From NCBI GenBank assembly GCA_021791195.1, contig JAJYXB010000021.1, positions 1 to 50,667 on the forward strand: a DNA stretch of 50,667 bases, in the 5' to 3' direction. This document shows positions 1 to 8,266 of this stretch, in pieces (within the stretch, counting starts at the first letter, position 1; the number at the start of each line of letters is the position of its first letter). The notes below the pieces were generated by a model that did no database searches, was not told the origin of the DNA, and saw only the letters and a list, made by a program, of their open reading frames with translations. Source of the stretch: Actinomycetes bacterium. Lineage in GTDB: Bacteria; Actinomycetota; Thermoleophilia; BMS3ABIN01. The position numbers and the translations under genes were made by a program.

Positions 1-604
1 GAACCCATGAGCGAGGTAGACTCGCGCCGAACACACGTTCCGATTGCGGCTCCGTCCCTGAATCTCATTCTTTGTGACCGAGAATCTTTGACCCGCTAAC
101 AAAAAGAGATTTTCAAGATCAGCGCCCAGCTGGATCAAACCACTGCGCTTCCCTGGTTCCCAAAAACATCTCATGCGCGCTGGAAATATCGCCAGCGAGC
201 TCTTCCATAATGGAAACCCTGCCTGCTCTCAAAGGATTTAGCTTGATATACCGGACTAGTTGTAATAGATATGTTTCATCCCGGCAGACAAAGTCCTTGA
301 AACGATTTTGGAATAGGTGGCCCGCCCGGTTGTATTTCTTGTTGAAATAAATAGCGTAGAAAGTGAGCAACCTTTGCATGAACAGCGAAATGGAGCCGGG
401 ACCACGACGTAGTAGCAAATGTACGTGATTCGGAACAAGTGCGTAGGCGTAAACAGGAGTTTCCGTTTCCGTGCTGAGCGTTCCGAGCCTTTCCAGAAAT
501 TTTTGTCGATCCCTTTCCTCGCAGAATATTTCGCGGCGTTCGATCCCGCGCGCGATCACGTGATAGAACAAACCGGGCGCATCAATTCTGGGTTTCCTGG
601 GCAT
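1..604 (-). pseudogene. REP-associated tyrosine transposase (Y1_Tnp), frameshifted and cut by the window edge
   Basis: The intact reading frame (119-604) encodes 161 residues of a Y1 transposase, the single-strand nuclease family linked to REP elements. Visible are the N-terminal start of the family (PRKPRIDAPG), the metal-binding HUH-type motif HVHLLLR, and the segment RYIKLNPLRAG that carries the catalytic tyrosine. The frame stops at 119-121, but in another frame of the same strand, directly after the stop, the sequence continues as DLENLFLLAGQRF and then EIQGRSRNRNV, which fits the DnaA/HTH-like C-terminal domain of longer members. One indel near position 120 would rejoin them. The gene runs off the left edge, so its true end is not visible. 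Probably inactive, though a sequencing error at the frameshift cannot be excluded. Confidence 0.8.
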
Positions 605-4317: not shown

Positions 4318-4495
4318 CTGAAAAAAGGCGAAGTTATAATTGAGTCCCAAGAACAGAGATGGGCTGTAAACTCCTTCCGGCAGTTTGACCGGATAGATTT
4401 TATAATCGGACCGTCAGCAAACCTCACTTGGGGCTCACCCTTTAACCGGATTCCCGGTCGCATCGTCTGATTTCCGGCATGCTAAGATATTTTCC

Positions 4496-5233
4496 GTGCC
4501 GGAACCCGCCACACTGATAATCGCATTTTTCGCCGTCCTGACCGCAGCCGCGGTGCAGGGCGCATCGGCTTTCGGCTTTGCGCTGGTCGCCGTGCCGCTG
4601 CTGATGCTGGTCATGCCGGCATCCGAGGCGGTCGCGACCAGCCTGATGCTCGGCTCGCTGCTTAATCTGCTGATGATCCGTGACGAGCGCGCACAGATCG
4701 CCTGGCGCGAGCTGCTGCCACTGCTGCCGGCCACCGCCGCGGGAACGCTTGCCGGGGCCGCGCTGCTCACGCGCCTGGACGGCGCCGGCTTCAGGATCAT
4801 GCTGGCGGCCGCTTTCCTCGGCGTTTCGCTGATGATGCTCAGCGGCCGTTCCCTCCCGGTCCGGCCCGGACGCGCCTTCGGCTGGACCGCCGGCCTGCTC
4901 AGCGGCGCACTCAACGGCGCCACCAGCATGGGCGGACCGCCCGTGGTACTTTATCTCACCGGCCGCCGGCTTCCCAAGTCTTCCCTCAGAGGCACGCTGG
5001 CGACTTTCTTCATCCTGGGAAATCTGGCCGCGCTGGCCGCCTTTCTGGCCGGCGGGCTCATAAGCGCACCGGTCGCCAGCCGCGCACTGCTGCTTGCACT
5101 GGCTGTCATCCCAGGCTACTTCGCCGGCCGTTTTTTGACAAACCGGCTCGACAGCGATGGCTTCCGCAAAGCGGTGTTGCTGACCATGGCCGCCACGGCG
5201 CTGGTGGAGATCGGCCTGGCGGCTTTCAGTTAA
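4496..5233 (+). CDS. TSUP (TauE/SafE) family membrane transporter
   Basis: A 245-residue membrane protein with about eight hydrophobic segments in two related halves, the layout of the TSUP family that exports sulfite, sulfoacetate or other organosulfur anions. The two family signatures are visible: VQGASAFGFALVAVPLL near the start and LSGALNGATSMGGPPVVLYL at the matching place in the second half. The start is a GTG at 4496; no strong Shine-Dalgarno is seen just upstream. It is transcribed away from murJ and stands alone, so its substrate cannot be inferred from neighbours. Confidence 0.88.
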   Translation: MPEPATLIIAFFAVLTAAAVQGASAFGFALVAVPLLMLVMPASEAVATSLMLGSLLNLLMIRDERAQIAWRELLPLLPATAAGTLAGAALLTRLDGAGFRIMLAAAFLGVSLMMLSGRSLPVRPGRAFGWTAGLLSGALNGATSMGGPPVVLYLTGRRLPKSSLRGTLATFFILGNLAALAAFLAGGLISAPVASRALLLALAVIPGYFAGRFLTNRLDSDGFRKAVLLTMAATALVEIGLAAFS

Positions 5234-5264
5234 TAGTACAGCTTATTGACGATAACAGGTTATA

Positions 5265-5409
5265 GGGCTCCGGGAGGTCAGAAGCCGGGACAAGGGCAGC
5301 TCCAAAACGCAGGGAACGACGGCAGCGGAGTCCGTCAGCTTTGATGAAGCCTGTTTGCGGAGCAGTGTGGGTCCCGAGTTTGGAGGCCGAAGATCACCCG
5401 GGGCCTTTT
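5265..5409 (+). ncRNA. Candidate structured RNA with a closing stem and a possible pseudoknot
   Basis: The 186-bp gap between two converging genes can fold as one closed unit. GGCTCCGGG (5266-5274) pairs with CCCGGGGCC (5397-5405) through nine base pairs including one G-U. Inside, CGGGAC (5286-5291) pairs with GTCCCG (5371-5376), CTCCAAA (5300-5306) with TTTGGAG (5379-5385), GACGG (5318-5322) with CCGTC (5332-5336), GCTT (5338-5341) with AAGC (5347-5350), and CGCA (5308-5311) with TGCG (5356-5359). The first two internal pairings interleave, which is a pseudoknot. The 3' side runs into TTTT. I do not recognise the class; it does not show SRP, RNase P or common riboswitch cores. Strand is inferred from the T run. 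Confidence 0.4.
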
Positions 5410-5419
5410 CGTTTCCCGT

Positions 5420-8266
5420 CTATCCCCCGCCGGCCGCCTGCAGTTTCGCCAGCGTGTCCTGCAACGCTTTGAGTTCGCTGCCGTAGGTGGCCCAGTCGCC
5501 CTTCTGCTGAGCCGCCACCGCGTTGTTGTAATGCGTCGCGGCGGCATCGATCAGCGCCTTGACTGCCGGACTCGGCGCGGCGCCGGTGGCCGCCGGCGCT
5601 GGCGTGGTCGCCGACGAGGGCGGCTTCTGCGTCACGCCTGTCACCGGCGTCCCGAAGATCTTGCCAAGCGCCGTTGCCAGATCCTGCTCCATGATCACCT
5701 GATTGCCGTATGACACCAGCACCCGCTTCAGCTCGGGGATCTGCCCCTGCGAGGCGCGCAGGTAAAGTGGCTGTACATAGAGGATCGACTGGTCGATCGG
5801 GATCACCAGCAGGTTGCCGTAGATCACCTGGCTGCCGCTCTGGTTCCACAGCGTCACCTGCTGCGAGATGGTCGGGTCCTGGTTGAAGCGGGCCATGATC
5901 TGCTGCGGCCCGTAGACGAGCTTGTCCTTGGGAAAGGTGAAGACCGTCCGCTGGCCGTAGACGCCCGGATCGCACTTGGCCGCCATCCACGAGATCATGT
6001 TGTCCTTGGTGCTGGGGACGAACGGCTGCAGGAGCATGAACTGCTCCTGCGTCTCGCCGGGCAGGCTCATGATCACATAATACGGATTCATCTGGGCGCC
6101 GTTGGGGCCGACGGTGGGGATGCTCCACTGGTCTTCCTTGTTGTAGAACACCTGCGGATCGGTCATGTGATAAGTGGCGTACATCTGTGCCTGCGCCTTG
6201 AGCAGGTCTTCGGGGTAGCGCAGATGCTGGCACAGCTCGTCGGGCATCTTGCTGCCGGGCGTGAACAGGCCCGGGAAGATATTCTCGTAGGTCTTGAGCA
6301 CCGGATCGGTGTCGTCCACGGCATAGAAGGTGACATCGCCGTTGTAGGCGTCGACCACTACCTTCACCGAGTTGCGGATGTAGTTGTAGCCGTCCGGCGC
6401 CGGCTGCGAGTAGGGATAGCTGTCGCTGGTGGTGTAGGCGTCCTGGATCCAGTACAGCCGGCCACCGGCCAGCACCAGGTAAGGATCCTTGTCGTAGCGC
6501 AGGAAAGGCGCGATATCCCGGATCCGGTCGCTGATGTTCCGGTGGATCATGATGCGCGTCTGGTTCTGGATGGCGTCGCTGACCAGCAGCTTCAGGCTGG
6601 CGAAGCGCCAGCTGAAGGCCAGCCGGCTGGGCAGGCTGGAGACATCGACGCCGCCCTTGCCGGCATAGTTGGTGTAGACATTCTGGTCGCCCTGCGGGTA
6701 GTCGAACTCCTTGGCGCTACTGTCGACCACCACGTAGTCGTTGGCCTGTTCACCGTAATAGATCGCCGGATTGGTGACATTCAGCTCGGGCGTCGAACTT
6801 TTCGGCGGCAGGTCCTTGATCAGCAGCTGCGGCAGACCCTCGGAGCTCACCTGCGCCACCTGGCTCATCGCCAGGCCGTAACCATGGGTGTAGACAAGGT
6901 GCTCGTTCTGCCAGGTTTTGGCCTGATCGGGCAGATTGTCAACCGCCAGTTCGCGCGCCGACAGCATCACCTGGGTCTCATTGCCGCCGATGCGGTAGCG
7001 GTCCACATCGACATCGGGGAAACTGTAATAAAGCCGGATCACCTGGATCTGGTTGTAAGTCTGCCCCAGCACGCTTGGCTCCCACAGGCGGATGTTGTTG
7101 ATGGTGGCGGCATTGTACTGCACGTCGGCCGCCGTCAGGTTGTCGGAGGCAGCAAACGGTTTCTCGTCGAACCCGTTCAGGTCGAACGCCTGCCGGGTGA
7201 AGTCGATGTTGTTCTTGATGTACGGCGCCTCCTTGGCCAGCTCGTTCGGCGACACCTCGTACTGCTGCACTACAAACGGATAGACCGCGCCGGCGAAAAT
7301 CGCCGTCAGTACGATGATGCCGATGGCCGCGATCGGCAGCTTCCAGCCGCGGAAATAGGTGTTGATGAGGAAGAGCAGACCGGCCAGCAGCGCCGTGGCG
7401 AACAGGAACTTGTATACCGGCAGCTGCGCGTGGACGTCCGTGTAGCTGGCGCCGAAGACGACGCCCCGCGGCGAGAACATCAAGGTATAACCCTTCAGCA
7501 GGTAGCCGGCGCCGAGCGTGAACATGATCAGGCCCAGCAGCACCGACAGATGCCCCTTGACGTGCGGGGCGAAGCGGAGGCGGTCCTTCTCCCAGTTGAT
7601 GGCGTAGTCGAAGAAGTGCATGCCAGCGGTTGCCAGAAAGGTGAGGATCAGCGTCCACCAGACGTACGACTGCAGCGTCCTGAGGAACGGCAGCGCAAAG
7701 ACGTAGAAACCGACATCGTGGCCGAACACCGGATCGCTGATGCCGAAGGGCGCCCGGTCGAGGAATTTGAGAAAGTCGAGCCAGCTGCTGCTGCCAGCGC
7801 CGATGACCACCAGCGTCGGCAGCAGCAGCCCCAGCGGGATCAGCAGCCTGAGCAGCCGGTCCGGCACCGGTACCCGCTCGACGATCTCGCTGCCGGGGCC
7901 CACCTTGAACCGGGGCGACATCCGCCGCGCCAGCAGGACATTCCCATAGATAAAAGCGAAGAAGATGGCGCCAGCGCCAAAACCCAGCCCCAGCCGGCCC
8001 AGCAGGCTCGTCCAGAAAACGCCGCGGTAGCCCACCTCGCCGAACCAGAGCCACTCGGTATACAAGTAGACGCCGCGGCCGAAGAACAGGATCAGGCAGA
8101 GGGCCACTAGCGCCAGCACGATGCGCAGCCATATCCGCCGCTTGCGCTCCTTCTTCGGCTTGAGCGGACGCACGTTCCCCGGCTGCTGCTCCGAGGACAG
8201 CCCGAAGCGCCGGGAAAGGTATTCCCAGAATTTGGAAAACTCGTATGGCGGCAGGTTGTTGTCCAT
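5420..8266 (-). CDS. UPF0182 family large membrane protein
   Basis: A 948-residue protein of usual UPF0182 length (about 900-1000). A polar basic N-terminus (residues 1-45, ending KKERKRR) is followed by about seven membrane segments up to roughly residue 330, then a large extracytoplasmic domain with family features such as QQYEVSPNELAKEAPYI and later WLAAKCD-like ISWMAAKCDPGVYG and QTVFTFPKDKLVYGPQQI regions. A Pro/Ala/Thr-rich linker precedes a short helical tail near residues 880-948. The molecular function of the family is unknown; it is widespread in actinobacteria and cyanobacteria. It is a single gene converging on the TSUP gene. Confidence 0.93.
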   Translation of the reverse strand: MDNNLPPYEFSKFWEYLSRRFGLSSEQQPGNVRPLKPKKERKRRIWLRIVLALVALCLILFFGRGVYLYTEWLWFGEVGYRGVFWTSLLGRLGLGFGAGAIFFAFIYGNVLLARRMSPRFKVGPGSEIVERVPVPDRLLRLLIPLGLLLPTLVVIGAGSSSWLDFLKFLDRAPFGISDPVFGHDVGFYVFALPFLRTLQSYVWWTLILTFLATAGMHFFDYAINWEKDRLRFAPHVKGHLSVLLGLIMFTLGAGYLLKGYTLMFSPRGVVFGASYTDVHAQLPVYKFLFATALLAGLLFLINTYFRGWKLPIAAIGIIVLTAIFAGAVYPFVVQQYEVSPNELAKEAPYIKNNIDFTRQAFDLNGFDEKPFAASDNLTAADVQYNAATINNIRLWEPSVLGQTYNQIQVIRLYYSFPDVDVDRYRIGGNETQVMLSARELAVDNLPDQAKTWQNEHLVYTHGYGLAMSQVAQVSSEGLPQLLIKDLPPKSSTPELNVTNPAIYYGEQANDYVVVDSSAKEFDYPQGDQNVYTNYAGKGGVDVSSLPSRLAFSWRFASLKLLVSDAIQNQTRIMIHRNISDRIRDIAPFLRYDKDPYLVLAGGRLYWIQDAYTTSDSYPYSQPAPDGYNYIRNSVKVVVDAYNGDVTFYAVDDTDPVLKTYENIFPGLFTPGSKMPDELCQHLRYPEDLLKAQAQMYATYHMTDPQVFYNKEDQWSIPTVGPNGAQMNPYYVIMSLPGETQEQFMLLQPFVPSTKDNMISWMAAKCDPGVYGQRTVFTFPKDKLVYGPQQIMARFNQDPTISQQVTLWNQSGSQVIYGNLLVIPIDQSILYVQPLYLRASQGQIPELKRVLVSYGNQVIMEQDLATALGKIFGTPVTGVTQKPPSSATTPAPAATGAAPSPAVKALIDAAATHYNNAVAAQQKGDWATYGSELKALQDTLAKLQAAGGG

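Follow-up and report, generated by a model that had tools for sequence, protein, structure and literature searches.

What occupies the short space between the converging genes for a TauE/SafE-family protein (positions 4496-5233, + strand, with its stop at 5233) and a UPF0182 protein (5420-8266, - strand, with its stop end at 5420) in a 50,667-nucleotide stretch of an actinobacterial genome (the window)? An inspection of the letters without database searches (the sequence-only reading) had proposed that this space encodes no protein and holds a new structured RNA with a pseudoknot at 5265-5409. The gap is indeed non-coding. The folding energy of the window sequence by itself is unexceptional (z = -1.2 on the + strand and -1.1 on the - strand), so that a comparison with relatives must decide; the case for a structured RNA is built on conservation and covariation rather than on folding energy.

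This comparison confirmed a conserved, covarying non-coding RNA. A DNA search of 99 relatives recovered the element from each of the other five genomes of the genus, at ~70% identity across its whole length in four and as two separate pieces in one, and fragments of it from other genera of the family. A covariance model (R1) detected it in 18 of 19 genomes of the family (Actinomycetota, Thermoleophilia), with a weaker match in G008 (E = 9.9e-8) than in the others; the exception is a genome of 86% completeness, with a best R1 match of E = 0.6. At nearly all of these loci the RNA adjoins the 3' end of the UPF0182 gene. In G004 and G005 another gene (a methyltransferase gene in the one tested) is inserted between the two, and in G005, the locus tested for it, a TauE gene is still found on the other side of the RNA. 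We designated this form type I; the numbering of the subtypes (I-V, f5) is our own.

Thirteen full-length type I sequences, taken from loci read in relatives, were aligned (alignment A1). RNAalifold, with no structure supplied, predicted a single long rod, which reads from the outside in as GAGCYCCGGG/CCCGGRGC, an A-A mismatch, GGUC/GAUC, a loop, GUC/GAC (elsewhere GCC/GGC), RRCC/GGYY and SGGA/UCCS; a variable stem (P3) and an apical hairpin (P4) were added by inspection. In the window, the closing stem P1 is formed by 5267-5274 and 5397-5404, is paired in 12-13 of the 13 sequences and shows a compensatory change from C-G to U-A in relatives. The nine-pair closing stem of the sequence-only reading stands as drawn (GGCUCCGGG/CCCGGGGCC, nine pairs starting from 5266/5405, or 11 with the flanking wobbles). 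It is followed by P1b (GGUC at 5276-5279, pairing with 5392-5395; U-A to C-G in two relatives), a 4x4 internal loop (5280-5283 opposite 5388-5391), P1c (5284-5286 with 5385-5387; middle pair U-A to C-G in four of 13), P1d (5288-5291, RRCC in relatives, with 5378-5381; second pair A-U to G-C in five of 13) and P2 (GGG at 5294-5296 with 5373-5375; outer pair G-C to C-G in three of 13). Six of the seven modelled pairs of P3 (GCUCC at 5299-5303 with 5359-5363) show two-sided change, and the apical P4 (GACGG...CCGUC, 5318-5336) has compensatory changes as well and is also present in the wider alignment A5 described below. On the 3' side of the P2/P3 junction, the unpaired GUGUGGG (5365-5371) corresponds to invariant or near-invariant columns of A1.

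Pair counts bear this model out. Over the 13 sequences 88.6% of the cells of the type I rod are paired, and pairing falls to ~50% if the partner columns are slid by one. Compensatory changes in homologues, which had been set beforehand as the test of the structure, are present: 15 pairs are double-changed, as compared with 9.6 ± 1.8 in shuffles (none of 500 shuffles reaches 15), and the covariation score is 0.244 versus 0.147. These data support a predicted unbranched rod consisting of the closing stem and then short helices parted by internal loops.

The two interleaved helices of the sequence-only reading fared differently. Both can be written exactly in the window sequence, where CGGGAC (5286-5291) is perfectly complementary to GUCCCG (5371-5376) in the six-pair helix and CUCCAAA (5300-5306) to UUUGGAG (5379-5385) in the seven-pair one, but in the 13 homologues they pair no better than shuffled columns do (43.9% versus 42.9% of the cells, with a covariation score of 0.078 versus 0.085). 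They thus resemble chance complementarity. The pair counts do not support the pseudoknot, and we dropped it, as its interleaved pairs lack the excess covariation that the rod has.

As to the ends of the RNA, 5265-5409 was about right, although the real span of ~5262-5413 is slightly longer on both sides. R1 places the window copy at 5263-5413 on the + strand with 133.6 bits and E = 9.9e-33, a score to be read with the window sequence being part of the R1 training set; R2, a model whose training set excluded every type I copy of the genus, the window copy included (see below), found it with E = 1.6e-10. The segment terminates, as claimed, in a T run (TTTTCGTTT). This T-rich tail (5406-5414), a likely intrinsic terminator, directly follows P1 and occurs at the type I locus on the + side only; in the five subtypes counted, the tails are on average 54-68% T. 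Upstream, a conserved TGACGATAAC box (5247-5256), kept in nearly all type I copies, is a likely -10 region (GATAAC) six bases before the RNA. No tRNA or tmRNA gene was found in the window or beside ten cousin loci. At 119-604 (- strand) the window also has a reading frame that resembles, as judged by eye, a small transposase of the REP-associated kind.

The RNA is not confined to the UPF0182 locus. The sequence-only reading missed that the element belongs to a multi-copy family that occupies several loci in a genome. R1 also matched, less strongly, further loci and a different family of Thermoleophilia; reading these showed the same architecture and a strongly conserved internal loop in which 5' UGGAGGAAA is opposite 3' GAGUACGAUGAAG. 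Nineteen diverse sequences were combined into alignment A5 (90.4% of cells paired; 76 double-changed cells versus 23.9 in shuffles), from which R2 was built. In the window's family, 18 of the 19 genomes have R2 matches, and so do 18 of the genomes sampled from a second family of the same class (f5); often a genome holds several copies. There are four in the window's genome and up to seven in another. Those of the window's genome are the window copy itself (C2:5263), two copies in tandem downstream of pgk (C23:15441 and C23:15676) and one upstream of aroF (C5:24961). Comparison of these relatives shows 5263-5413 (+ strand) to be a predicted non-coding RNA of ~150 nt and one copy of a multi-copy, rod-shaped family of Actinomycetota.

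A third model, R3, was made of type IV alone, from classes of the phylum other than that of the window (alignment A6, 29 double-changed pairs). It has strong matches in most sampled genomes of type IV's class, and it also detects, at E = 1e-4 to 3e-6 per genome, type II and type III copies of the window's family, none of which was used in training; the window copy itself is not reported by R3. Chiefly because of this cross-detection by R2 and R3, we regard the subtypes as one putative superfamily. What links the subtypes is the closing stem together with the loops, and the case is least strong for the shortest forms (69-70 nt). Such miniatures, with a similar closing stem and a U run, were seen in family f16 (L135 960-1029, L137 1501-1569, L138 1501-1569); they may belong to the superfamily or simply be terminators that look alike. 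A pattern scan of named species genomes yielded convincing members in actinobacteria only, several of them labelled Thermoleophilia; the non-actinobacterial ones among its 30 matches had no convincing R1 match. A phage origin was also considered and rejected, as none of 14 pattern matches on viral contigs was convincing by R2 (best E = 0.0044, partial).

The subtypes differ in length and surroundings. Type I (~150 nt) lies beside UPF0182. Type II (~150 nt) is found downstream of pgk in several genomes (L063, L065, L104, L141), with genes for AMIN-like lipoproteins near two loci; at L063 (1501-1902) and L141 (2942-3334), two different copies stand in tandem downstream of pgk, ~85-95 bases apart. 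Type III (~130-150 nt) was read at six loci (L140, L143, L145, L147, L149, L150), at which it lies ~110-210 bases ahead of the start of the DAHP synthase gene aroF and in the same orientation. The f5 type (~154 nt) has several copies beside fpg/mutM, converging on fpg. Type IV (~183 nt) belongs mainly to another class of Actinomycetota. After type IV copies, a conserved CCCCCAUGGUUAAUA-like stretch was noticed (L159 2016-2197, L167, L171), and in L159 the RNase P RNA gene begins ~530 bases from the type IV copy on the opposite strand. The flanking genes thus differ among the types (UPF0182; pgk or AMIN-like lipoprotein genes; aroF; fpg/mutM), which argues for a stand-alone RNA.

Furthermore, the window has a second RNA. 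The sequence-only reading had flagged the type I RNA and overlooked a related one ~900 bases upstream, type V (~104 nt, 4340-4443, + strand), which R2 reports in the window with E = 0.0077. It has the closing stem GAGUCCCAAG/CUUGGGGCUC, preceded by TTATAAT. Orthologues occur in many genomes of the family, are placed just upstream of the type I RNA in many relatives and are more conserved than type I (81% mean column identity), with a nearly invariant core (AUGGGCUG-AAACUCC...CCGGCAG...GUCAGCAA) that may hold a fold of its own. Type V has no match in Rfam 15.

In all subtypes the closing stem has the general form RGYCCCRAGAAGUC/GGUUUCUUGGGGCU with a T-rich tail after it. Purines make up 82-91% of the unpaired bases in each type counted, as compared with 50% of the paired ones. 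Promoter-like sequences vary from type to type. Most copies of f5 and type IV have TTGACA-like and TATAAT-like boxes 15-19 bases apart that end a few bases before the RNA start, and 16 of 22 match the promoter at p <= 0.01 versus shuffles. Type II has good -10 boxes, type I matches the consensus just slightly better than shuffles do, and type III scores below shuffles. Independent transcription is well supported for some types and is plausible for type I via its conserved TGACGATA box, as far as can be read from these motifs; type III copies may have no standard promoter of their own.

The window copy has the RGYCCCRAG closing stem, the covarying inner helices and the purine internal loops of the family. 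The GGAGGAAA/GAGUACGAUGAA internal loop is absent from it and is replaced by CAGGGAAC/AGCUUUGAUGAAG. The other type I copies of its genus (g1) lack this loop as well, whereas most type I copies in the rest of the family retain it; the loop is therefore not defining for type I, and its loss may mean that the window copy has diverged functionally. Types II, f5 and IV, as well as most type I copies outside g1, share GGAAA facing (G/A)AGUA, which is reminiscent of the sarcin-ricin or bacterial loop E module (AGUA facing GAA). The likeness is one of sequence alone, and its AGUA side is missing from the window copy.

The RNA could not be assigned to a known class, in line with the sequence-only reading. 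Among the 4227 models of Rfam 15, none matched the window RNA or the tested relatives and cousins above its gathering threshold, and for the window RNA no meaningful match appeared even at E up to 10 on a short stretch. Nor was a description of the rod RNA found in the titles and abstracts of open-access papers. It shares with the orphan structured RNA classes from comparative genomics, such as those outlined in PMC2864571, its discovery by covariation, a strong structure and an unassigned role; it differs in that the tested copies match none of the Rfam models. Taken together, it very probably represents a new stand-alone RNA family, as judged from comparative analysis.

How such an RNA would act can be approached through its rivals. 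The family could be one of base-pairing regulators whose purine-rich loops bind pyrimidine-rich segments of mRNA or rRNA. The share of purines among unpaired bases, the resemblance of GGAGGAAA to a Shine-Dalgarno sequence and the several divergent copies per genome all agree with this. Nevertheless, it appears rather unlikely, since the loops are kept as two-sided motifs (GGAAA facing AGUA), suggesting a folded module over a free seed, and no exposed single-stranded seed is common to all types. A 6S- or Ms1-like rod that binds RNA polymerase, its loops mimicking an opened promoter, is less probable still. Such RNAs are likewise non-coding, stand-alone and rod-like with paired ends, the rod RNA has purine-rich bubbles, and actinobacteria offer a precedent, as an RNA polymerase-binding RNA besides 6S, Ms1, is described for them in PMC9130861 and PMC4191392. 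However, each of the six family genomes tested encodes a canonical 6S RNA at another site (74.8-80.4 bits; C3:42113-42269 in the window's genome), and the 6S model RF00013 has no match at our locus even at E up to 10, so that 6S RNA itself was rejected. Besides, the rod RNA has several purine loops rather than one large central bubble, and several paralogues of differing length per genome would be unusual for a 6S-like RNA.

A cis-acting leader, i.e., a riboswitch-like attenuator, would suit the position of type III upstream of aroF on the same strand, and for this type a cis role in the control of aromatic amino acids is possible, given that position and the lack of a clear promoter. For the family as a whole, it is improbable: the window has no same-strand gene directly downstream of type I (UPF0182 converges on it), in line with the original argument against a riboswitch, the f5 copies converge on fpg, and promoter-like boxes and T-rich tails flank the RNA in several types. 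The converging genes and the terminal T run in the window might also suggest a mere terminator or spacer hairpin, but we find this highly improbable for an element of ~150 nt with covarying inner helices, a conserved box directly upstream and a T run on the + side only, whose relatives are also located outside convergent gaps (downstream of pgk, upstream of aroF). We give the least credence to a CsrA-sequestering RNA or a Y RNA. The rod RNA is a stand-alone RNA rich in GGA motifs, as are CsrB and CsrC (RF00018/RF00084), and one copy weakly resembles CsrC below threshold (18.2 bits, E = 0.2), but it is a rod rather than an array of short hairpins. Moreover, in none of 12 RNA-carrying genomes was there a CsrA above the cut-off (sub-threshold fragments only, inside reading frames of at least 500 aa) or a Ro60/TROVE protein, and both candidates were ruled out by the absence of these partner proteins.

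We lean slightly towards the explanation that the copies belong to a multi-copy actinobacterial family of rod RNAs that act in trans and are probably bound by a shared protein, the last of these, as the mode of action, being proposed with reserve. According to this proposal, the RNA would be transcribed from a primary-sigma promoter directly upstream and would end at the closing stem and U run. On a stiff rod, the purine loops would stack into non-canonical modules (tandem G-A, loop-E-like); indeed, GGAAA facing (G/A)AGUA resembles sarcin-ricin, and GGAA facing UGAA permits tandem G-A pairs. One putative protein common to all copies would recognise the lower rod close to the closing stem, and the variable upper part would tell the copies apart. 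Most likely, the RNA would serve in a stable trans-acting RNA-protein particle or as a regulatory RNA rather than in the control of TauE or UPF0182.

Thermoleophilia have few cultivated members, which may explain why the rod RNA was overlooked. With covariance models, invariant loops and well-defined ends at hand, it is directly testable. If the subtypes of ~100-190 nt (perhaps down to 70) are a phylum-wide multi-copy superfamily, a reading that we hold only tentatively, they would constitute a previously unseen RNA-protein system of Actinomycetota, in which one shared closing stem would serve one shared protein and the upper domains would be particular to each subtype. The RNA is present in 18 of the 19 genomes of one family and in 18 of those sampled from a second, and it has a cousin in a further class; this spread suggests a core role in the cell, so far missed by RNA libraries.
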